A stretch of DNA of 9,161 nt, taken from positions 1-9,161 of the forward strand of contig JAQGJF010000936.1 in assembly GCA_028290765.1 (NCBI GenBank). The letters run 5' to 3'. Made by a program: the position numbers and the translations under genes. Of the stretch, positions 1 through 9,161 are shown in pieces; the stretch's first letter is position 1, and every line of letters starts with the position of its first letter. The notes beneath the pieces were generated by a model. The model had not been told where the DNA came from. It worked only from the letters and a program-made list of their open reading frames with translations, and did not search any database. The DNA comes from Tardiphaga sp. GTDB taxonomy: Bacteria; Pseudomonadota; Alphaproteobacteria; Rhizobiales; Xanthobacteraceae.

Positions 1-87
1 GGTGACGAACACAAAACCATCGGTCTCGACGGCGTGGCTGAACGGCGCGACCGGCTTCGGCCCGCCTTGGAGCATGTGAAATTTCAA
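1..87 (-). CDS. RidA family protein (N-terminal part; runs off the left edge)
   Basis: Only the first 25-29 codons are in the window. From the ATG at 75 the reading is M-L-Q-G-G-P-K-P-V-A-P-F-S-H-A-V-E-T-D-G-F-V-F-V-T, which matches the usual opening of RidA/YjgF/Rid proteins (P-x-A-P-x-S-x-A-V, then G-x-x-F-x-T before a conserved GQ). RidA-family proteins are small cytoplasmic trimers that hydrolyse reactive enamine/imine intermediates; some subfamilies, such as RutC, serve nitrogen-compound catabolism. I place the start at the TTG at 87 rather than the ATG at 75. An AGGA (100-97) lies 9 nt before the TTG, nothing SD-like precedes the ATG, and an in-frame TAG just upstream bounds the frame. 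The gene begins 19 nt after the stop of the fused amidase, so it is probably the next gene of the same operon. The catalytic Arg and trimer-interface region lie outside the window, so the subfamily cannot be told. Confidence 0.75.
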   Translation of the reverse strand, partial: MKFHMLQGGPKPVAPFSHAVETDGFVFVT

Positions 88-106
88 CGGAGGGGGTCCT
101 GACTAA

Positions 107-2455
107 TTACGATCGCGGGGCATGTTCGAACAGGCTCTTGCTCAGGATGGCATGAACGCCCCAATTGCCGTCCACCACCTGCGTCACGCCGAAATCCACC
201 GCCGCCGACATCAACGCGATCGCTTCATCCTCGGTCAGCCCTTTGATGTTCATCAGGAAGCGGCGCATTTTCCGGAACGCATCCTTCATGGCAAGGTCGA
301 GTGACGATTTGGCATAGACTTCGCTCTGCCCGTTGGCGCCGAACTCGGCGAGATAGTTCGGGTGGCTGAACCCGGTGAGCACCCAGTCGGTTTCGGTCTC
401 GATCAAAGGATAGGTGAGGTCGGCAAAAGCACGCCCAGCCAGATCGGCCTTCTTGTGCAGAATGAGCTGGAAGGTGCCGGTCATCGAACATTCGATGGCG
501 GTGCCGCCCAGTTCACCGTCGCCCTGCGTCGCATGCGGATCGCCGACCGACAGCAAGGCGCCGGGTACCGAAACCGGCAGATAGACCGTCGACCCCTTGC
601 CAAGCCGCCAATTGTCGAGATTGCCGCCGAAATAGGACGGCGGTATCGAATCGACGAAATCCACTTCGCGCGGCGCCACCGCGATCACACCGAAATGCGG
701 GCGCAGCGGAATTCGAATACCCTCGAGCACCACGTGCCTTCGCTTGACGGAGCCGGGCGCCACCGGAACGCCGGGATAATCATACGTCGTGTGAACGACG
801 CCGAACGGATCGGTCTGCGGCTCCCAGCGGTAGGAATACAGCGCGCGGGCGTGGGGGCCCTTCTTCTCGTTCAGGATTTCATAGATCGTCACCGCTTCGC
901 GCGGCCGCGGCTCGTTGAGAAACTCGCCATAGTGATAGCCCCACCACGCCGCCACGCTGCTGCCGAACACCCGGCCGGCAAAATCAGGATTGCGGCTCGG
1001 ACGCGGTACGATGTCGAGGATGCGAACCTCGAGCACGTCGCCGGGCTGCGCGTCCTTCACCGCCACCGGACCGGTGCAGATGTGAACTCCGAAGCCTTCG
1101 CCGGCACCGCGCCCGTAAACCGAGGCATCCATCGGGCCGGCGCCGCGCCGATCGACATTCTTGGTGTCGCGCGTCCAATGGAAGACGCTTTCGGCACCGG
1201 CATCGCCCGCGATCATCCGATCCGGATCATCGGAGGCATGCTGGGTCAGGGTCTCGATGGTGATGGTGTCGCCGGAATTGATTTCGGTTTGCGGCGTCAG
1301 CGACCGGCTGAAATAGCCCCAATGCACCCGCGCCGCTTCGACCGAAAGGTGATGGTGGTTGTGGTCGCCCTCGGGGCTGCGGCAAACCGCATCGGCCTCC
1401 ACCGGCTCGGTGCTCTTTCGAGCCACCGCCGCGGGATGATGGCTGCGCAATTGCGCCAGCGCATCCTGCGGCCAGCCACGTTGCCCGACGGCTGCTGAGG
1501 ATGACGTCGCGCGCTCGATCTCATGCTGGCGGAATTCGCGCGGCGACAGCCCGAACCGATGACGAAACGCGCGGCTGAAATGCGCGGAATCGCTAAACCC
1601 GTTGCGGAAGGCGATCTCCGAGATCGAATGATGCGCCTCCGCCGGATTAGACAGGTCCGCCGAACTGCGCTGCAGCCGGCGTTCGCGCACATAATGCGTG
1701 AAGCTGGAACCGGTGCCCTCGAACAGCTTTTGCAGGTAGCGCTCGGATATTCCCTCGGCCTGGGCGACCCTGGCTGGCGTGAGATCCGGATCGTCGAGCT
1801 TGCGTTCGATCACCTGGCAGATGCGATGCAGGATCGCCGCTTGCGTCGCGGTGCCGCCCGGGTCCGTCGCCGGCGTCGCGCGCTGCGTCAGGAATGTCGG
1901 CAACAGGTCGGCGAGGCTCTGCGCCACCGCTGCCCATTCGACATCCGAGAGCGTCTCGAGCGATCGCGCCGCCGATTCCAGCGTCCGCGAAAACACATCG
2001 GCAAAACCGCCGGGCGCCACCACGCGAATTTCGTCCAATCCCGATCGGCCGATCTTGCGGCCGTGGAACGCGTCGGAGGTCACCGACAACACCACGGCCC
2101 GCATGTCGCGCTGAAACGTCACGCTCCAGTCGCCCCGTCGCGGCAGCAGCAGGAGATGGCCGACAGAAACGATCTGGTGACTGGCGCCGGTCTTCAACGC
2201 GACGCCGTCCTCGATCGGCAGCAACACGATCGGCAGATCGTCGGCGAGATGCGGCAGCGGTGCGATAGCCTGCGATCCGGCCGACAGCCGGACCAGCGCG
2301 ACGCCATGGGAACTGCGGCGCGAGGCCGTGGCATGTCCGCGATAAAGTGCGGTGGCCGATGCCGGCTGGAGACCGACCGCGTTCAGTACGTCCCGCCACG
2401 CCTCCGGGCGGTCGTCTTCGGAATACGATTCACTCGTGAACGGACGAAAGCTCAT
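107..2455 (-). CDS. AraC-family regulator fused to acetamidase/formamidase (782 aa)
   Basis: This is one uninterrupted frame with two complete modules. Residues about 15-190 resemble the AraC-binding-like sensor domain of AraC regulators. Residues about 205-310 are a full double helix-turn-helix: first HTH around LTPARVAQAEGISERYLQKL, second around ISEIAFRNGFSDSAHFSRAF, ending in the typical F-G-x-S-P-x-x-F-R. A linker of about 55 residues, rich in Ala, Ser and His, leads to residues about 366-782, an FmdA/AmdA-family amidase (PF03069 type). That half shows VHWGYF, the HFG motif (587-589), GGNLDNW (610-616) and GDPHATQGDGE (638-648). The family hydrolyses short amides such as formamide or acetamide to the acid plus ammonia in the cytoplasm. 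The frame stays open upstream to an ATG at 2605, but I start at the ATG at 2455: the extra 50 residues would overlap the preceding gene and cover a sigma-54 promoter, and they resemble no domain. The start has only a weak SD (CTGGGG). The enzyme half has the family's usual length and keeps its motifs, so it may be active. A sequencing or assembly error that removed a stop between two genes is possible but not indicated. Confidence 0.88.
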   Translation of the reverse strand: MSFRPFTSESYSEDDRPEAWRDVLNAVGLQPASATALYRGHATASRRSSHGVALVRLSAGSQAIAPLPHLADDLPIVLLPIEDGVALKTGASHQIVSVGHLLLLPRRGDWSVTFQRDMRAVVLSVTSDAFHGRKIGRSGLDEIRVVAPGGFADVFSRTLESAARSLETLSDVEWAAVAQSLADLLPTFLTQRATPATDPGGTATQAAILHRICQVIERKLDDPDLTPARVAQAEGISERYLQKLFEGTGSSFTHYVRERRLQRSSADLSNPAEAHHSISEIAFRNGFSDSAHFSRAFRHRFGLSPREFRQHEIERATSSSAAVGQRGWPQDALAQLRSHHPAAVARKSTEPVEADAVCRSPEGDHNHHHLSVEAARVHWGYFSRSLTPQTEINSGDTITIETLTQHASDDPDRMIAGDAGAESVFHWTRDTKNVDRRGAGPMDASVYGRGAGEGFGVHICTGPVAVKDAQPGDVLEVRILDIVPRPSRNPDFAGRVFGSSVAAWWGYHYGEFLNEPRPREAVTIYEILNEKKGPHARALYSYRWEPQTDPFGVVHTTYDYPGVPVAPGSVKRRHVVLEGIRIPLRPHFGVIAVAPREVDFVDSIPPSYFGGNLDNWRLGKGSTVYLPVSVPGALLSVGDPHATQGDGELGGTAIECSMTGTFQLILHKKADLAGRAFADLTYPLIETETDWVLTGFSHPNYLAEFGANGQSEVYAKSSLDLAMKDAFRKMRRFLMNIKGLTEDEAIALMSAAVDFGVTQVVDGNWGVHAILSKSLFEHAPRS

Positions 2456-2480
2456 GCATCGACCCCAGACCGGGAAATCG

Positions 2481-2498
2481 AAGCAACCTCCGTGCCAA
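2481..2498 (-). promoter_or_regulatory. Sigma-54 (RpoN) -24/-12 promoter for the regulator-amidase fusion gene
   Basis: Read on the minus strand, 2498 to 2481 is TTGGCACGGAGGTTGCTT, a full match to the sigma-54 consensus TGGCACG-N4-TTGC(A/T). The invariant GG is at 2496-2495 and the GC at 2484-2483, with the required 12-nt offset. The predicted transcription start is near 2471, giving a leader of about 16 nt to the ATG at 2455. Sigma-54 promoters need an enhancer-binding ATPase; NtrC under nitrogen limitation is the natural candidate beside an amidase, but no clear NtrC site (TGCAC-N7-GTGCA) was found upstream. The element lies in the only long gap of the operon, which supports a real promoter rather than a chance match. 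Confidence 0.8.
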
Positions 2499-2542
2499 AG
2501 ATGCGGTAAAAATTTCCCCGCCGGCTGCGACAAAGTCACCGC

Positions 2543-2563
2543 CGGACAGGTCGAATCGGTCCG
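2543..2563. promoter_or_regulatory. Dyad CGGAC-N11-GTCCG upstream of the sigma-54 promoter
   Basis: Inverted 5-bp arms (2543-2547 and 2559-2563) are separated by 11 nt, about 45-70 nt upstream of the -24 element and inside the 130-nt gap between the two amidase genes. Activator sites for sigma-54 promoters usually lie about 80-150 nt upstream, and dyads this short arise often by chance in GC-rich DNA, so this is only a candidate operator, for example for the AraC-type half of the fusion. Confidence 0.2.
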
Positions 2564-2585
2564 AAAGCCCATGTCTGTCAGAGCG

Positions 2586-3827
2586 TTAGTCGCATCTGAA
2601 GACATTCTTGCGGATCGTGCCGTGAACCCCCCAATTGGCGTCGACGACCTGGGTCACGCCAAAATCCGCCCCCACCGACATCAGCGAGATCGCCTCGTCT
2701 TCGCTCAGATGGTGCACCGTCATCAGAAACCGCCGGAGCTTTCGGAACGCGTCGCGCATCGCGCGATCGAGGCTCGAATGATTGGCGATCTCGGTCTGGG
2801 CATTGGCGCCGAGTTCGGCGAGGTAGTTCGGATAGCTGAAGCCGTAGACCGACCAGGCCTGGTCGGTCTCCAGCATCGGGTGGGTGAGGCCTTCCAGCAC
2901 CGTGCCGCCGAGATCGCGGTGCTTGTGCAGGATGAATTCGAAATCCCCGGTCAGCGAGGTCTCGATCGCGGTGCCGCCGAGTTCGCTGTCGCCCTGCGCG
3001 GCATGCGGGTCGCCCACCGAGAAAAACGCGCCGGGCACCGCCACCGGATAATACATCCGCGCACCCTTGCCGACCCGCCAGTCGTCGATGTTGCCGCCGG
3101 TATAGCTCGGCGGGATCGAACTGACGAAATCGGCCTCAGACGGCGCCAGCCCCATGGTGCCGAAATGCAGCCGTGCCGGCACTTTCACACTGGTGAGGAT
3201 GTTCTCACGCTTGGTGATGGTGGCGTGATCGACCCGCACGCCGGGATAATCGATGGTCGGATGCACGATGCCGTCCGGATCGGTCTGCGGCGTCCAGACG
3301 TAATTGTAGACCGCCTTCGCGAACGGCTCGCCGGACGTATCGAGTTCGAAGATGGTGATGACCTCGCGCGGCTTCGGCTCCTCGATCAGGTCGTGATAGT
3401 GAAAGCCCCAATTCGCCGCGGCATTGGAGCCGAAGCAACGTCCTGCATGACAGGCGTGGCAGGCGGGACGCGGCCGGACGTCCAGGATGCGAACTTCCAG
3501 CACGTCACCCGGCTCGGCGTTCTCGATCGCCACCGGCCCGGTCAGGAGATGCACGCCGATGCCTTCGCCGGATCCGCGGATGAACGGCCCTTCGGTGGGG
3601 CCGGAGCCGCGGCGAGCCACGGCCTTGTGCTCGCGGGTCCAGTGAAACACGCTTTCCGCGCCCGGATCACCCGCGATCATGCGCTCGTAATCGTCATTGG
3701 CGTGGTGCGTCAGCGTCTCGATCGTCGCGCGATCTCCGGAGCGCAGCGTCAGGGCCGGCGCGACCTTCTTGCTGAAATAGCCCCAGTGAACCGTCTTGGG
3801 CGAGACCGGCAGGAGATGATGCTTCAT
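2586..3827 (-). CDS. Acetamidase/formamidase family protein, stand-alone paralogue (413 aa)
   Basis: This is a full-length member of the FmdA/AmdA family (usual length about 400-415 aa), predicted to release ammonia from short-chain amides in the cytoplasm; there is no signal peptide or membrane segment. Motifs seen are VHWGYF (13-18), ESVFHW (58-63), HFG (221-223), IPPSYTGGN (238-246) and GDPHAAQGD (272-280). It aligns over its whole length with the enzyme half of the downstream fused gene, with well over half of the residues the same by eye, so the two are tandem paralogues. Two oddities: the motif continues S281-E where its paralogue has G-E, and residues 123-127 read CHACH followed by GRC, where the paralogue has RNPDFAGRV. 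The start ATG has a GGAG 8 nt upstream and lies 34 nt after the transporter gene's stop, so the two are probably co-transcribed. Formamidase and acetamidase activity cannot be separated from sequence alone. Confidence 0.9.
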   Translation of the reverse strand: MKHHLLPVSPKTVHWGYFSKKVAPALTLRSGDRATIETLTHHANDDYERMIAGDPGAESVFHWTREHKAVARRGSGPTEGPFIRGSGEGIGVHLLTGPVAIENAEPGDVLEVRILDVRPRPACHACHAGRCFGSNAAANWGFHYHDLIEEPKPREVITIFELDTSGEPFAKAVYNYVWTPQTDPDGIVHPTIDYPGVRVDHATITKRENILTSVKVPARLHFGTMGLAPSEADFVSSIPPSYTGGNIDDWRVGKGARMYYPVAVPGAFFSVGDPHAAQGDSELGGTAIETSLTGDFEFILHKHRDLGGTVLEGLTHPMLETDQAWSVYGFSYPNYLAELGANAQTEIANHSSLDRAMRDAFRKLRRFLMTVHHLSEDEAISLMSVGADFGVTQVVDANWGVHGTIRKNVFRCD

Positions 3828-3861
3828 GTGAGGGGCTCCGGCGAAAACGATCGAATGTGGG

Positions 3862-5481
3862 TCATGACAGTTTCTCCGGCGCCCTGTCGGCTTCCATCGC
3901 GCTGAGGAAGCGGGCCGTGAGCGGATTGCGCGGGTTGGTCAGGACCTCATGCGCCGGTCCCTCTTCGACAATCGAGCCGCCTGAGAGAAACACCACGCGG
4001 TCCGCGACTTCGTCGGCGAAACGCAGCTGATGCGTCGAGATGATCATGGTCAGGCCGTCCTCGACCGCCAGCCGCCGGATCACTTCCAGCACTTCATTGA
4101 CCAGTTCCGGATCGAGCGCCGAGGTCGGCTCGTCGAGCAGCAGGACGGTGGGACCCGGCGCGATGGCGCGTGCGATCGCGACGCGCTGCTGCTGGCCGCC
4201 GGACAAATGTCGCGGCAGCGCGTCGGCGCGGTGGCTGAGGCCGACGCGTTCGAGCAGTTCACGCGCCCGCCGCTCAGCGTCGACCCGTGAGACGCCATGC
4301 ACCCAGCGCAAGGGGCCGGCGACATTCTCCAGCGCGGTCAGATGGCCGAACAGATTGAACTGCTGGAACACCATGCCGACGCCGACGCTGGCGCGCTCAT
4401 TGGCCATGTCACGCGGCGACAGCGCCTTGCCGTCTTCGCGAAATCCAATGCGCCGTCCGCCGATCTTGACGGTGCCGGCATCCCAGCCCTCCAGATGATT
4501 GATGCATCGGAGCAGCGTGCTCTTGCCCGACCCGCTGGGGCCGAGCAGCGCGATGACTTCGCCGACACGGACCGTCATGTCGACGCCGGCCAGGACGGCC
4601 TGCTTGTCATAGGCTTTATAGAGACCGGCGACGTCGACCACCACGTCGTTCTGCGTCAGCGTCGCCGATCGCTTGGTCCGGTCCGCCCGCGACGCTTTGC
4701 CGTTAGGCAGCGCTGCGAAGGGGATAACCTCGCCCACGCCGGCAGGAGAAGGCGATTCCGCGCCGGCCGGCTCCAGCAGCAATGGCGCGCGGTACCAGGG
4801 CATGAAACGGGCAAAGCGATTCTCCGTCGCCGGCCGGTCGAGATCGAGCGCCCGCTCCACGAACAGCTGGATGACGCTGACGGCGCCGGTGAGCACCAGA
4901 TAGATCAGTCCGGACGCGAAGAAGATCGAAAAGAAGTCGAAGGTCGAAGAGGCCAGCTGGGTGCTGCGCAGCGTCAGCTCCTGCACCGAGATCACGCTGG
5001 CGAGCGACGAATTCTTCAGGGCGCTGACGGTTTCGTTGCCGAAGGCGGGGATCATGGTGCGGATCGCCTGCGGCGCGATGATGCGCCGCATCAGCAATCC
5101 GGGCGTCATGCCCAGCGCCTGGCCGGCGGAGATCTGCCCGCGGTCGACACCGAGTACCCCGGCGCGAAGCATTTCGGCGATGAAGGGCGCCTCATTCGCC
5201 GCCAGCGCCAGGCCGGCGGCACCGATCGCACTCAGCTTGATACCGAGGTGAGGCAGTGCGTCATAGGCAAACACCATCTGGAGGATCAGCGGCGTGCCGC
5301 GAAAGATCACGGTGTAGCCCCGGGCGAAGGCCGCCAGCACCTGAAAACGGCTGAGCTGCATCGCCGCGAGGACAACACCCAGGACCAGTCCGCCGCCGAG
5401 CCCGAGAGCAGTCACCGCGATGGTGAACTCGATGCCCTCGAGCAGGTACGGCATACTGAGATAGTGGAAGAACAGCAGCAT
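3862..5481 (-). CDS. Amino-acid-type ABC transporter, fused permease and ATP-binding protein (539 aa)
   Basis: An inner-membrane permease and its ATPase are joined in one chain. Residues about 1-215 form a HisM/HisQ-type permease: hydrophobic segments near 14-40, 62-76, 86-100 and 183-207, and an EAA-type loop around 97-140 (E-A-P-F, then G-Q-A-L-G-M). A hydrophilic linker of about 60 residues follows. Residues about 280-530 are a complete ABC ATPase: Walker A GPSGSGKST (314-322), Q-loop Q373 or Q374, signature LSGGQ (426-430), Walker B VLLLDE (446-451), D-loop SALD, and switch histidine H484. The nearest annotated class is the 'amino acid ABC transporter permease/ATP-binding protein' of the polar amino acid uptake family. 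A homodimer of this chain would supply both permeases and both ATPases, consistent with no second permease gene in the operon. It starts 18 nt after the binding-protein stop, so it is surely co-transcribed, but no strong SD precedes the ATG, which suggests translational coupling. The solute is unknown; the context points to a nitrogen compound destined for the amidases. Confidence 0.92.
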   Translation of the reverse strand: MLLFFHYLSMPYLLEGIEFTIAVTALGLGGGLVLGVVLAAMQLSRFQVLAAFARGYTVIFRGTPLILQMVFAYDALPHLGIKLSAIGAAGLALAANEAPFIAEMLRAGVLGVDRGQISAGQALGMTPGLLMRRIIAPQAIRTMIPAFGNETVSALKNSSLASVISVQELTLRSTQLASSTFDFFSIFFASGLIYLVLTGAVSVIQLFVERALDLDRPATENRFARFMPWYRAPLLLEPAGAESPSPAGVGEVIPFAALPNGKASRADRTKRSATLTQNDVVVDVAGLYKAYDKQAVLAGVDMTVRVGEVIALLGPSGSGKSTLLRCINHLEGWDAGTVKIGGRRIGFREDGKALSPRDMANERASVGVGMVFQQFNLFGHLTALENVAGPLRWVHGVSRVDAERRARELLERVGLSHRADALPRHLSGGQQQRVAIARAIAPGPTVLLLDEPTSALDPELVNEVLEVIRRLAVEDGLTMIISTHQLRFADEVADRVVFLSGGSIVEEGPAHEVLTNPRNPLTARFLSAMEADRAPEKLS

Positions 5482-5499
5482 ACTTTGACCGAAAGAGCC

Positions 5500-6384
5500 T
5501 TACTTGACCGAGAGAATGCGCGGTTCTTCAAAGTTGTTGACGTCGAGCTGCCACTTCTTGAGCAGGTCCATGTGGATGCCGGCCTTCTGAACCTCGATCA
5601 GCGCCGCCATCACGGCATCGCGGAAGTCGGTCTTGTTCTTGGGAACAGCGATGCCGACCGAATAGGGAATCGTCACCGCGAGCGCCTTCTCCAGCTTGTC
5701 GGGATAGGCCTTCACGGCCTGATCGACGGTGTTGACGTCGTTCACATAGGTATCGGCGCGGCCGGCGAGGATCGCCTGGATGCAGTTGGCGTTGTTGTCG
5801 TAGAGCTGGATGGTCGGCTCGGGCTTGCCCGCGGCCTTGCATTGCGGCATCAGCGCCTGGATCAGCGGGACTTCGACATAGCCGGTATTCTCGGCCGCCG
5901 CCGCGCCGCACATCGACAAATTGATGCCGTCGATCTTCTTCGGATTGCCCTTGGCGACCAGGACGCCGTCGAACACTTTCGAATAGGTGATGAAGTCGGC
6001 CGCCTTGGCCCGTTCTTCGGTGGCGTAGATGTCGGAGATCACGATGTCGGCCTGGCCGGCCGCCAGCGTGGTCAGCAGCGCGGCGAAGGTCACCGCCTTG
6101 TAGGTCAGCTTGAAGCCGAGGCACTCGCCGATCTGTTCGCCGAGGTCGATGTCGAAGCCGACATATTTGCTCGGATCTTTCGGATCGATCGCCTCATAGC
6201 CCGGCGTGTGCGGGTTGATGGCGTTGACCAGTGTCTTGCCCTTGAGGTCGGGATATTTCGTCTGCAGCGCCGCGCAGCCGGCAGGCGCGGCGTCGGCCGC
6301 GATCGGTGCACAGAGGCCGGCGACAAGGATCGCGCCCAAAGCCGCATGGCGCCATCGGAACTCCGTAAAAAACGACATCTGCAT
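5500..6384 (-). CDS. ABC transporter substrate-binding protein, family 3 (294 aa)
   Basis: This is a periplasmic receptor of the polar amino acid type (SBP_bac_3). A signal peptide covers about residues 1-32: positive TEFRWRH, hydrophobic AALGAILVAGLCAPIA, then ADA-A for signal peptidase I. The family signature is plain at 77-90, G-F-D-I-D-L-x3-I-G-x2-L. Further typical segments are LLTTLAAGQADIVISD (103-118) and the late AGRADTYVND (207-216), where the second-lobe ligand residues usually sit. Four Cys in the mature chain (37, 88, 159, 182, with 201 a fifth) may form disulfides. The frame is open to an ATG at 6483, but I start at 6384: an AAGGAG at 6397-6392 stands 7 nt before it, and the signal peptide begins there. 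This is the first gene of the minus-strand operon, directly before the permease/ATPase that it presumably feeds. The ligand is not evident; amino acids, amides and small amines all occur in this family. Confidence 0.92.
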   Translation of the reverse strand: MQMSFFTEFRWRHAALGAILVAGLCAPIAADAAPAGCAALQTKYPDLKGKTLVNAINPHTPGYEAIDPKDPSKYVGFDIDLGEQIGECLGFKLTYKAVTFAALLTTLAAGQADIVISDIYATEERAKAADFITYSKVFDGVLVAKGNPKKIDGINLSMCGAAAAENTGYVEVPLIQALMPQCKAAGKPEPTIQLYDNNANCIQAILAGRADTYVNDVNTVDQAVKAYPDKLEKALAVTIPYSVGIAVPKNKTDFRDAVMAALIEVQKAGIHMDLLKKWQLDVNNFEEPRILSVK

Positions 6385-6391
6385 GTGACCA

Positions 6392-6397
6392 CTCCTT
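6392..6397 (-). promoter_or_regulatory. Ribosome binding site deciding the start of the family-3 binding protein
   Basis: AAGGAG on the minus strand, 7 nt before the ATG at 6384. It is the strongest SD in the operon and settles the choice against the ATG 99 nt upstream at 6483, which has no SD and would add a positively charged, non-signal-like 33-residue extension. Confidence 0.75.
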
Positions 6398-6405
6398 CGA
6401 TGTTG

Positions 6406-6421
6406 CATGGCGCATGCCATG
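6406..6421. promoter_or_regulatory. Palindrome CATGGC-N4-GCCATG, overlapping a sigma-54-like element
   Basis: A perfect 6-bp inverted repeat with a 4-nt centre lies 22-37 nt upstream of the binding-protein ATG. On the minus strand the same bases read TGGCATG-CGCC-ATGCA (6419-6404), which keeps the GG (6418-6417) and GC (6406-6405) of a sigma-54 promoter at the right 12-nt distance but differs from consensus at two positions. If used, transcription would begin near 6393, inside the SD, leaving about 9 nt of leader; that argues against it being a normal promoter. It may instead be an operator or a leader hairpin. Confidence 0.35.
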
Positions 6422-6489
6422 TTCCAGTTCGAAGGCGAGCCTACGGTCGGCCGGGCGCGGAAAGCTTGTCTGCGGGCGTACAAAAAGTT

Positions 6490-6503
6490 GGATCAGCCGA
6501 TCC
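6490..6503. repeat. Short palindrome GGATC-AGCC-GATCC in the divergent intergenic region
   Basis: Perfect 5-bp arms around a 4-nt centre, near the middle of the 238-nt region (6385-6622) between the divergent binding-protein and glycosylase genes. The position suits an operator, but the arms are short. Apart from this, the palindrome at 6406-6421 and a TACATT near 6609, I see no convincing promoter or RNA element in this region. Confidence 0.25.
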
Positions 6504-6608
6504 CACGATTTGAGCACGCCTGTAGAAATTATGTGCACAAGCGCCGCCCGGCCCTGGATGCGGCGTGGGCAAACCGTGGGACTGCCTACCCAACCGTGCG
6601 AATCCGGC

Positions 6609-6614
6609 TACATT
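6609..6614 (+). promoter_or_regulatory. Possible -10 element (TACATT) for a leaderless glycosylase transcript
   Basis: TACATT ends 8 nt before the ATG at 6623, so transcription from it would begin at or next to the start codon. No SD is present upstream of this ATG, which fits a leaderless mRNA. No matching -35 hexamer is seen at 16-18 nt, so the call is weak. Confidence 0.25.
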
Positions 6615-6622
6615 CCCGCGCC

Positions 6623-7813
6623 ATGTCCCGTACCAGCCCATCCCACCCTTTGACCAAGGCCCAGGCCAGACCCATCTGGCTCCACGCCCAGCGGCTCGAC
6701 AGCACGGCACCGTTCGGCGACGGCCCGTCGGCGACGGCGGCCGCGGTGGAGCATCTCGGCTATGTGCAGATCGACACCATCAACGTGATCGAGCGGTCCC
6801 ACCACCACGTCCTGTTCACGCGCATTCCCGCCTATCGGCGCACCGACCTGCGCCAGGCCCAGAGCATCGACAAGACCGTGTTCGAATACTGGACCCACGC
6901 GCTGTCCTATGTGCCGACCCGGGATCTCAAATTCTTCGTGGCCGACATGCGGCAGCACCGGCGCGAACCGAACAACCGGTTCAACTCCGTGAAGCCGGCC
7001 GATCTGCGCAAGGTGCTGAGATTGATCAAGAAGGATGGCGCGCTGACGATCCGCGACATCGAGGACGACGTGCTGGTCGACAAGGATCATCCCTGGGCCA
7101 GCCGCAAGCCGTCGAAGCGGGCGCTGCAACTGGCGTTCTATACCGGCGTGCTGACGATCAGCGCACGCAGCGGCATGCTCAAGACCTATGAGCTGATGGA
7201 CCGGCATTTCGGCTGGGACAAATCGCCGAAAGCCGCCTCGGCAACCGAGATCTCCAGCTATCTGCTCGACCGCGCCTTGCGGTCGCAGGGGATCGTGAGC
7301 CTGGATTCGATCTGCCATCTCGATGCGCCGAGCAACTCGGCGGTGCGGCGGCTGATCGAAGCGAGACTCCGCCGCCGGGAACTGGTGCCGGTGGCGCTGG
7401 AGGGCGCCGGAAAGCTGGAGCACTGGGCCCGCCCGGAGGTGCTCGAGCCCGCCGGCGATGCCGCATCCGGGATGGTCCACATTCTCTCGCCGTTCGATCC
7501 GCTCGTGATTCAGCGCAAGCGCACCCATCTGTTCTTCGACTACGAGCATCGTTTCGAGGCCTATATCCCGAAGGAGAAGCGGCTGTTCGGCTATTTCGCG
7601 CTGCCTGTGCTGGTGGACGGCTACATCGTCGCCGCCATCGACCTCAAGACCGATCGCCAGAAGCAGAAATTGCTGATGCAGAAATGGAATTGGATCGGCA
7701 AGCGCCCGCGCAAGGACCTGAAACGCCGTATCGAGGAAGAATTGCACCGCTTCGAGCGCTTTCAGCTCGCCGATGATCCGCTGCGCGAAACCCCGGCTGT
7801 CGCCGGCGTATAG
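6623..7813 (+). CDS. YcaQ/AlkX-type DNA crosslink repair glycosylase, winged-helix protein (396 aa)
   Basis: This is a full-length member of the HTH_42 family (PF06224), the AlkZ/AlkX glycosylases that remove bulky or interstrand-crosslinking alkyl adducts from DNA. The catalytic QxD motif is seen as Q49-I50-D51 in YVQIDTINVIERSHHH; the AlkX (YcaQ) branch has QxD, whereas AlkZ proteins have QxQ. The following ERSHHHVL, a mid-protein FEYWTHALSYVP (about 90-101), a wing-helix region near 170-220, and the C-terminal FDPLVIQRKR and FEAYIPKEKRLFGYFALPVL blocks are all typical. The E. coli protein is of similar length (about 410 aa). The frame is open upstream to 6407, but those 72 codons cover the intergenic region and resemble nothing, so the ATG at 6623 is preferred although no SD precedes it. 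It is transcribed divergently from the amide operon and appears to be a single housekeeping repair gene unrelated to it. Confidence 0.9.
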   Translation: MSRTSPSHPLTKAQARPIWLHAQRLDSTAPFGDGPSATAAAVEHLGYVQIDTINVIERSHHHVLFTRIPAYRRTDLRQAQSIDKTVFEYWTHALSYVPTRDLKFFVADMRQHRREPNNRFNSVKPADLRKVLRLIKKDGALTIRDIEDDVLVDKDHPWASRKPSKRALQLAFYTGVLTISARSGMLKTYELMDRHFGWDKSPKAASATEISSYLLDRALRSQGIVSLDSICHLDAPSNSAVRRLIEARLRRRELVPVALEGAGKLEHWARPEVLEPAGDAASGMVHILSPFDPLVIQRKRTHLFFDYEHRFEAYIPKEKRLFGYFALPVLVDGYIVAAIDLKTDRQKQKLLMQKWNWIGKRPRKDLKRRIEEELHRFERFQLADDPLRETPAVAGV

Positions 7814-7838
7814 ACCTGCTACACTCGTTATCACGCGA

Positions 7839-7855
7839 CAGCCGGCCAACGGCTG
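7839..7855. repeat. Inverted repeat CAGCCG-N5-CGGCTG between glycosylase and binding-protein genes
   Basis: A 6-bp GC-rich stem with a 5-nt loop lies 26 nt after the glycosylase stop and 21 nt before the next ATG. There is no following T-run, so it is not a standard intrinsic terminator. It could be a leader hairpin or a chance dyad. Confidence 0.2.
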
Positions 7856-7875
7856 CGTGGCTCAAGGGAGGCTCC

Positions 7876-8943
7876 ATGCGAAACCGACCATGGTCGAGGC
7901 GCAAATTCTTGAAGGCATCGACCGCCTTGGCGGCGGGCGCGTTCGTTCCGCAGCCGCTCAGGGCCGCGGCGCCGCCGCCGAGCGAAGTCACGCCAGCGCT
8001 GATCGAAGCCGCGCGTAAGGAAGCCAAGGTCTCGTTCTACTCTGCGCTCGAGCTCAACGTCGCCGAGCGGCTCGGCAAGGCGTTCGAGGCGAAATATCCC
8101 GGCATCGCGGTGCGGGTCGAACGATCGGGCGCCGAGCGGATCTACCAGCGCATCGGCCAGGAACAATCCAGCCGCATCAATGCGGTCGACGTCGTCAACA
8201 GCACCGATCCGGCGCATTTCCTCGACTGGAAGAAGAACGACTGGCTGGCGCCCTATCTGCCCGACGATGTCGCGAAGCATTTTCCCGCCGACCAGTTCGA
8301 CGCCGATGGCCTGTTCGCGACCTCCTGCGCCTGGCTCGAAGTGATCGGCTACAACACCAGCCTGGTGAAGAAGGAAGACGCGCCGAGAAGCTATGCGGAT
8401 CTGCTCGACCCGAAATGGCAGGGCAAGATCGTCAAGGGCCACCCCGGCTACAGCGGTGCCATCATGACCGCGACCTTCGTCCTCAAGCGCGATCTCGGAT
8501 GGCCCTATCTCGAAAAGCTCGCCCAGCAAAAAGTCATGCAGGTGCAGTCGGCCGCCGATCCGCCGAAAAAGATCCTGCTCGGCGAGCGCGCCATCATGGC
8601 CGACGGCAACGACTACAATCTCGTGCTGCTCAAGGACCATGGCAAGCCGGTCGAAGTGGTGTTTCCGGCCGAAGGCTCACCGTTGATCATCGTGCCGAGC
8701 GGCGTGTTCCGCAGCGCGCCGAATCCCAGCGCGGCGCGGCTGTTCCAGAGTTTTCTGCTCAGCGCCGAGACGCAGCTGATGCTGGTCGACGTGTTCGCCC
8801 ATCGCTCGTTCCACGCGCTGGTCAAGGAAAGAGCCGGTCACGTCCCGTTGTCGAGCATCAAATTGCTGAAGGCCGATCCCGCAGAAGTGCAGGCGCAGAG
8901 CGAAGAGATCAAGGCGCGCTACGCCAAGATTTTCGGGGTGTGA
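7876..8943 (+). CDS. Extracellular solute-binding protein, iron/polyamine-type ABC receptor, Tat-exported (355 aa)
   Basis: This is a periplasmic solute receptor of the Fe3+/thiamine/spermidine-like class (SBP_bac_1/6/8 superfamily). It opens with a twin-arginine signal: S7-R-R-K-F-L-K13, hydrophobic ASTALAAGAFV, and a probable cleavage after L-R-A at about 30. The mature chain shows VSFYSALELNVAERLGKAFEAKYPGI in lobe 1 (split here by nothing unusual), SYADLLDPKWQGKI (172-185), which is highly typical of AfuA-type receptors, and GSPLIIVPSGVFRSAPNPSAA, the C-terminal 'gap-filling' region of this class. The double tyrosine of iron-binding FbpA/FutA proteins is not seen, so iron is not implied. 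A strong SD, GGGAGG, lies 4 nt before the ATG. No permease or ATPase is in the window; they may lie to the right. The next gene starts 47 nt downstream on the same strand. Confidence 0.85.
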   Translation: MRNRPWSRRKFLKASTALAAGAFVPQPLRAAAPPPSEVTPALIEAARKEAKVSFYSALELNVAERLGKAFEAKYPGIAVRVERSGAERIYQRIGQEQSSRINAVDVVNSTDPAHFLDWKKNDWLAPYLPDDVAKHFPADQFDADGLFATSCAWLEVIGYNTSLVKKEDAPRSYADLLDPKWQGKIVKGHPGYSGAIMTATFVLKRDLGWPYLEKLAQQKVMQVQSAADPPKKILLGERAIMADGNDYNLVLLKDHGKPVEVVFPAEGSPLIIVPSGVFRSAPNPSAARLFQSFLLSAETQLMLVDVFAHRSFHALVKERAGHVPLSSIKLLKADPAEVQAQSEEIKARYAKIFGV

Positions 8944-8990
8944 TCGGCGGCGGGTCATACAGACGACGGCACTCTGCGCCAGGAGAAACT

Positions 8991-9161
8991 ATGAAAATTG
9001 CAGCAAGATTGCTTTTCGGATTGTCGGTGTTGCTATCGCCGGTATTGGCATCGGCGCAGGAATTTCCCGACAAGCCCATCAAGCTGATCGTGCCGTTTCC
9101 GGCGGGCGGCCCGAACGACGTCATCGCGCGCGTGATCGGCCAGCGCATGTCGGAACTGCTC
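8991..9161 (+). CDS. Bug/TctC-family tripartite tricarboxylate transporter receptor (N-terminal part)
   Basis: The first 57 codons are in the window and the gene runs off the right edge. A Sec signal peptide spans about residues 1-22 (K-I-A-A-R, then LLFGLSVLLSPVL, cleavage after A-S-A), followed by the hallmark FPDKPIKLIVPFPAGGPND and ARVIGQRMSE of Bug (TctC-like, PF03401) receptors. These periplasmic proteins bind carboxylates, aromatic acids or amides; large orphan families occur in Bradyrhizobium, Bordetella and Cupriavidus. An AGGAG lies 5 nt before the ATG. Its position 47 nt behind an ABC-type receptor suggests co-transcription, although the two belong to different transport systems. 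The ligand cannot be read from this fragment. Confidence 0.9.
   Translation, partial: MKIAARLLFGLSVLLSPVLASAQEFPDKPIKLIVPFPAGGPNDVIARVIGQRMSELL

Follow-up and report, generated by a model that had tools for sequence, protein, structure and literature searches.

A conserved fusion of an AraC-type regulator to an acetamidase/formamidase, very probably a regulator of the adjacent amide operon in Tardiphaga

Why a transcription regulator and an amide-hydrolysing enzyme should share one polypeptide, and what such a protein would do beside an amide operon, are questions raised by a 9,161-nucleotide stretch of Tardiphaga sp. DNA (assembly GCA_028290765.1, contig JAQGJF010000936.1, positions 1 to 9,161), referred to here as the window. 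The gene at 107..2455 on the reverse strand codes for 782 aa in a single open frame, which stays open upstream of 2455 as far as an ATG at 2605, and the claim of a sequence-only reading that it joins a regulator to an amidase is borne out by this uninterrupted frame and by Pfam domains in both halves. The AraC/XylS helix-turn-helix domain (HTH_18, residues 231 to 310, positions 1526..1765, reverse strand) scores 75.3 bits against a cut-off of 33.6 and has its helices in the AlphaFold model, and the regulator half matches the AraC proteins CuxR (5nla) and GadX (3mkl) by Foldseek. The N-terminus, described as a sensor-like domain in that reading, matches AraC_binding_2 at 21.6 bits, below the Pfam cut-off of 27. 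The amidase half (residues 366 to 777, 125..1360, reverse strand) belongs to the FmdA_AmdA family (PF03069) by its score of 101.5 bits against a cut-off of 27 and by its motif residues, and it matches the enzyme of structure 3b9t by phmmer (9.7e-180) and Foldseek (TMt 0.92, 62% identity). From residue 366 onward it aligns with almost all of the standalone amidase encoded next door (413 aa, 59% identity), and the domain boundary therefore coincides with the start of a standalone enzyme. The fusion scores 118.4 with the FeaR equivalog model (NF007243), for which the curated value is 199, and 62.3 bits with the formamidase equivalog model (NF045496), for which the cut-off is 500, and is thus assigned to neither.

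Sequence comparison indicates that the AraC-amidase pairing is old and conserved. Homologues spanning both domains are readily found: HTH_18 and FmdA_AmdA share a single chain of 749 to 829 aa in 120 of 120 among the matches listed (of 2782 homologues), and the opposite outcome named in the sequence-only reading, close relatives that all have two separate genes, is not what these relatives show. At a threshold of E ≤ 1e-60, 125 of 391 related genomes (the family of G004) match; 101, counted from the listed rows, hold both halves at one place, including G234, which is covered only to residue 595, and 23 have a standalone amidase alone. Phylum-wide, 16 of 398 genomes match and 7 of these have both halves. 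In 16 of 18 matched plasmid records (E ≤ 1e-60) a single place covers 80% or more of the chain, and these fusion-bearing records span alpha- and beta-proteobacteria. An AraC match, fused or unfused, is present in 50 of 199 Caulobacteraceae genomes at E ≤ 1e-35, and the full-length unfused regulators, in the part of the listed rows that was examined, are only 37 to 39% identical to the AraC half in the window. Sixteen listed proteins of 404 to 467 aa, with 80 to 90% identity, have no AraC domain; P0133 and P0135 start in the linker, and the other 14 may represent fragments, products of gene calling, or genuinely unfused genes.

That the fusion results from a lost stop codon, a frameshift, or an assembly artefact has a vanishingly small probability and is refuted by independent genomes and metagenomes that carry the same chain, including six named Tardiphaga and Bradyrhizobium genomes. 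Nothing in the window supports it, and the broken copies are those of relatives, namely Rhizobium johnstonii TP60, G332 (the one genome among the 125 matches in which the gene is divided between two frames), and locus L077. The TP60 gene (L026 4471-6880) is annotated as two pieces, and some databases name this protein group only by its enzyme half, for example as "acetamidase/formamidase family protein."

The fused amidases form one clade in each of three trees (support 99/94, 100/97, and 98/92). The 100/97 tree has 31 fused rows in the clade and no Caulobacteraceae fusion, and was built without the long-flagged rows L074, L034, P0231, P0169, and L073, without the fused P0176 and P0163, and without the supposed fusion fragments P0171, P0173, P0182, and P0240, a further 21 rows being thinned. 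The 98/92 tree adds eight Caulobacteraceae fusions, L034, P0182, and P0240, omits L073, L074, and other thinned rows, and recovers a clade of 38 fused rows together with P0182 and P0240. P0171 and P0173 start within the linker or the end of the AraC half; P0182 and P0240 do not, and are called fusion fragments because of their tree position and their possession of Q405 and L626, residues described below. Several origins of the fusion, as a quick tree of other rows would suggest by placing the fused amidases in two groups, were rejected because the careful trees give a single clade; nor is the fused half a recent tandem duplicate of the amidase next door, since that amidase belongs to a separate clade (PAR). 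In a regulator tree of thinned rows, without L008 and the cut-off fusions P0331 and P0344, 15 regulators that lack an amidase half fall into a single clade (98/95) lying within a set of 30 fused regulators, with weak outgroup attachment (61/79), and one gain of the amidase half followed by one loss would thus be the simplest history. Locus L075 (G366), which has undetermined bases, was placed neither as fused nor as unfused.

The halves are separated by a 54-residue linker (residues 312 to 365, 1361..1522, reverse strand) that is predicted to be disordered, with pLDDT below 50 at residues 319 to 363 in a model whose mean is 78, and that is the least constrained part of the protein (dN/dS 0.37). 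So long a disordered connection favors an explanation by co-expression, in which the AraC half, with an N-terminal sensor of its own, would regulate alone and the amidase half would be a second enzyme made at equal dose, with DNA binding unaffected, a reading that we regard as somewhat unlikely. The linker also carries an RGWP box (residues 326 to 329, 1469..1480, reverse strand), and an RGxP box is present in 68 of 69 fusion linkers, many of them near-copies (RGWP in 43, RGRP in 19, and RGLP, RGKP, and RGSP in 2 each), with none seen in the printed C-termini of 15 unfused regulators, which speaks against co-expression as the sole reason for the fusion. RGRP is the core of AT-hooks; the RGWP of the window departs from this core, and the box is therefore not classed as an AT-hook here.

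The amidase half evolves under enzyme-like constraint. Median dN/dS, from pairs that all include the window (13 for the amidase half, 12 for the standalone amidase, and 13 for the AraC N-domain, with dS about 0.7 to 1.2), is 0.089 for the amidase half, 0.074 for the standalone neighbour, 0.106 for the HTH, and 0.23 for the AraC N-domain. Such enzyme-like values fit co-expression of a second enzyme, and the faster evolution of the AraC N-domain relative to the amidase half fits a different alternative, in which the amidase half would have little or no catalysis and amide binding, not cleavage, would signal to the AraC half. This purely sensory role, which we think quite improbable, also draws support from two residues at positions that vary little or not at all among 59 standalone enzymes. 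L626 (578..580, reverse strand) is leucine in 53 of 53 fused domains, with tyrosine in 58 and phenylalanine in 1 of the 59 standalone domains, and Q405 (1241..1243, reverse strand) is glutamine in 43 of the 53 fused domains, with histidine in 59 of 59 standalone ones; P0182 and P0240 stand outside these 59 rows, and their inclusion would give H405 in 59 of 61 and Y or F at 626 in 59 of 61. Both substitutions may mean altered or reduced catalysis, and the restriction of L626 to fused domains in this comparison also counts against simple co-expression. Against the loss of catalysis, residue 405 is histidine in the other 10 fused domains (a Novosphingobium plasmid copy and nine Caulobacteraceae copies), residue 626 is L or F also in more distant amidases of solved structure, and 53 of the 63 columns that are invariant among the 59 standalone domains persist in 90% or more of the 53 fused domains. 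The kept residues include N612, D614, D639, H641, D646, and E648, which occur in every fused and every standalone row of the comparison and the last four of which lie in the GD-x-H-x2-QGDGE motif (residues 638 to 648, 512..544, reverse strand). Enzyme-like constraint combined with residues specific to the fused form counts in favor of an enzyme half that senses or removes a ligand, as the sequence-only reading had supposed, and we infer such feedback here, although the weakly matched AraC N-terminal domain could do all of the sensing.

Upstream of the fusion and on the same strand lie the standalone amidase paralogue (413 aa, 2586..3827), an ABC importer whose permease and ATPase form a single chain (539 aa, 3862..5481), and an ABC solute-binding protein (SBP_bac_3, 5500..6384, with the start at 6384 chosen by us). 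An AlkZ-like DNA glycosylase gene (6623-7810, forward strand) is divergent from this operon and is followed by a further solute-binding protein gene (7876-8943, forward strand), whose product has a weak TAT signal match below the cut-off. The single-chain permease-ATPase is also seen in the operons of relatives. Fusions as a whole adjoin amidases of three clades (PAR, Tat-exported, and SHORT), in collinear or divergent arrangement, and the PAR neighbours come with an ABC importer. It counts against co-expression of a second enzyme that the fusion is kept in both alpha- and beta-proteobacteria despite the frequent presence of another amidase (two places are listed in 16 of 16 fusion-bearing plasmid records), while 5 of 20 genome loci (L066, L067, L069, L079, and L080) show a fusion with no amidase seen nearby.

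The Caulobacteraceae, in which 18 loci were fetched, supply an argument on the other side. A SHORT amidase is followed by an unfused regulator only in nine of these (L101-L106 and L109-L111) and by a fusion in two (L098 and L108), both forms occur about 3.5 to 9 kb apart in four (L094-L097), L107 has one fusion and one unfused regulator, and L099 and L100, both on short contigs, have a fusion. Members of the same AraC clade that lack the amidase half adjoin the same type of amidase, some of them with the same operator (see below), which favors co-expression, and their position behind SHORT amidases implies that regulation at these loci does without the amidase half; the clade suggests that regulation can proceed in its absence. 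Other neighbours vary, with nitrile hydratase genes, a point in favor of the bifunctional reading given below, near the fusion copy of Caballeronia zhejiangensis (L027 2322-4066), a RidA-family gene directly 3' of the fusion in the rhizobial loci L026, L030, and L031, and, upstream of the unfused regulator and amidase of Phenylobacterium (L006 771-3885), frames that we take to be TauD-type dioxygenase-, Rieske oxygenase-, and extradiol-type dioxygenase-like.

A candidate operator for the AraC half, TGTACG-N6-GACAAG (pattern TGTRCG-N6-GACAAG), is located at 6465..6482 on the reverse strand, upstream of the operon that runs from the solute-binding protein to the standalone amidase. With K allowed at the first position, it occurs exactly in 11 of 18 upstream regions of solute-binding protein genes and within one mismatch in 15 of 18, compared with 0.0 and 0.045 in shuffles, these being the same 18 regions from which the motif was derived and four of them being near-identical Tardiphaga-group loci. 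In the window alone the pattern is unremarkable, with one match at two mismatches against 1.15 expected. In support independent of those regions, 8 of 38 other loci scanned afterwards (L073, L094-L098, L101, and L103) contain exact copies; some of the eight are closely related to one another, and L101 and L103 have unfused regulators only. The unfused Phenylobacterium aquaticum locus L006 has no copy within one mismatch. In L094 and L096 the site is oriented towards another gene and not towards the fusion, whereas in L097 and L073 it faces the fusion. Further independent support comes from 11 whole genomes, 10 of which were selected because their locus was known to hold the site: the exact copies number 10 in all, each in this locus and none elsewhere, and G124 has no exact copy anywhere in its genome. 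A reversed control pattern matches 10 times as well, which makes the count unexceptional and leaves only the position as unusual. A −10-like element, TAGGCT (6438..6443, reverse strand), lies 21 nt after the operator and is kept in close relatives, and in several loci a −10 of the form TAAGCT or TAGGCT stands about 21 nt past the site. The leader of the solute-binding protein gene also contains a CATGG/CCATG dyad (6404-6421, reverse strand), likewise present in close relatives, which may be an operator or an RNA hairpin. The operator and the conserved place beside amidase genes are the reasons why the polypeptide very probably regulates the adjacent amide operon. The earlier interpretation therefore survives as regards a conserved polypeptide and, at this strength, a regulator of the amide operon, and its statement that the protein binds DNA is kept here as a prediction.

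The fusion gene has a promoter signature of its own. Promoters of the sigma-54 (−24/−12) type have the consensus TGGCAYR-N4-TTGCW and require their own activator. TGGCACG-N4-TTGCT at 2482..2497 on the reverse strand, roughly 30 nt ahead of the start of the fusion, matches this consensus with no mismatches. Among the upstream regions of 60 fusions, many of them near relatives, 35 have an exact site and 40 a site with at most one mismatch, compared with 0.0 and 0.14 in base shuffles; the matches come from the PAR-operon set and from some loci of beta-proteobacteria. At the same tolerance the site is absent from 20 of the 60, including all 12 type B copies, and none is present in the rhizobial loci L026, L030, and L031. 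A search for NtrC-type sites upstream of the promoter gave no consistent site. A sigma-54-like sequence at 6404-6419 (one mismatch) was set aside, as it is very near the start of the solute-binding protein gene and no relative matches within one mismatch. Two RpoN proteins in Bradyrhizobium are the subject of PMC13207237.

We consider it probable, with moderate confidence, that the protein is a bifunctional local regulator for amide-nitrogen scavenging whose enzyme half handles the same amide class. The fusion gene would be transcribed from its own sigma-54 promoter, presumably under nitrogen limitation given the promoter type; the AraC half would bind TGTRCG-N6-GACAAG just upstream of the −10 element and switch on the adjacent ABC importer and amidase operon; and the amidase half, on a flexible linker with its RGxP box, would bind and probably hydrolyse amides of that same class, so that the state of the regulator would be tied to amide supply. 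The sequences themselves show the conserved fusion, its constraint, the gene order, and the promoter and operator signatures, whereas DNA binding, activation, nitrogen control, the identity of the amide, catalysis by the fused half, and feedback are inferred. A bolder version, which we regard as unlikely, is a self-terminating one-component switch, armed by sigma-54 under nitrogen limitation, in which the fused amidase would destroy the inducer while the protein is operator-bound and the system would reset when the amide is exhausted. The bifunctional reading draws on four elements that the sequence-only reading does not mention: the neighbouring standalone amidase, the linker motif, the operator, and the sigma-54 promoter.

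If the bifunctional reading is true, this is a catabolic enzyme built into the very protein that regulates its pathway. The predicted operator appears to be the only one, and there are natural relatives that have lost the enzyme half, so that the way in which enzyme-regulators link turnover with transcription could be tested directly. The analysis also supplies a predicted operator and a connection to sigma-54 for a protein group that some databases name by its enzyme alone; among the literature listings covered, no paper was recognised as describing an AraC-amidase fusion. The protein resembles AraC/XylS activators in its HTH_18 domain, its Foldseek matches, and the proposed operator beside a −10 element, but differs in the C-terminal enzyme behind the HTH and in an N-terminal sensor that falls below the Pfam cut-off. 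It resembles FmdA_AmdA amidases, of which the nearest solved structure is 3b9t, the standalone enzyme of Methylobacillus flagellatus, in fold, length, motif residues, and sequence identity, but is joined to a regulator and has L626 and Q405. The unfused Caulobacteraceae AraC regulators, such as that of P. aquaticum, belong to the same clade and are likewise encoded behind an amidase gene, but lack both the amidase half and, as far as seen, the RGxP box, and this sister clade without enzyme half and RGxP arm is a natural with/without comparison. Trigger enzymes and enzyme-regulator fusions such as PutA, BirA, NadR, and the AraC-type Ada combine a DNA-binding and a catalytic part in one chain, as does the fusion described here, although the enzyme family differs.
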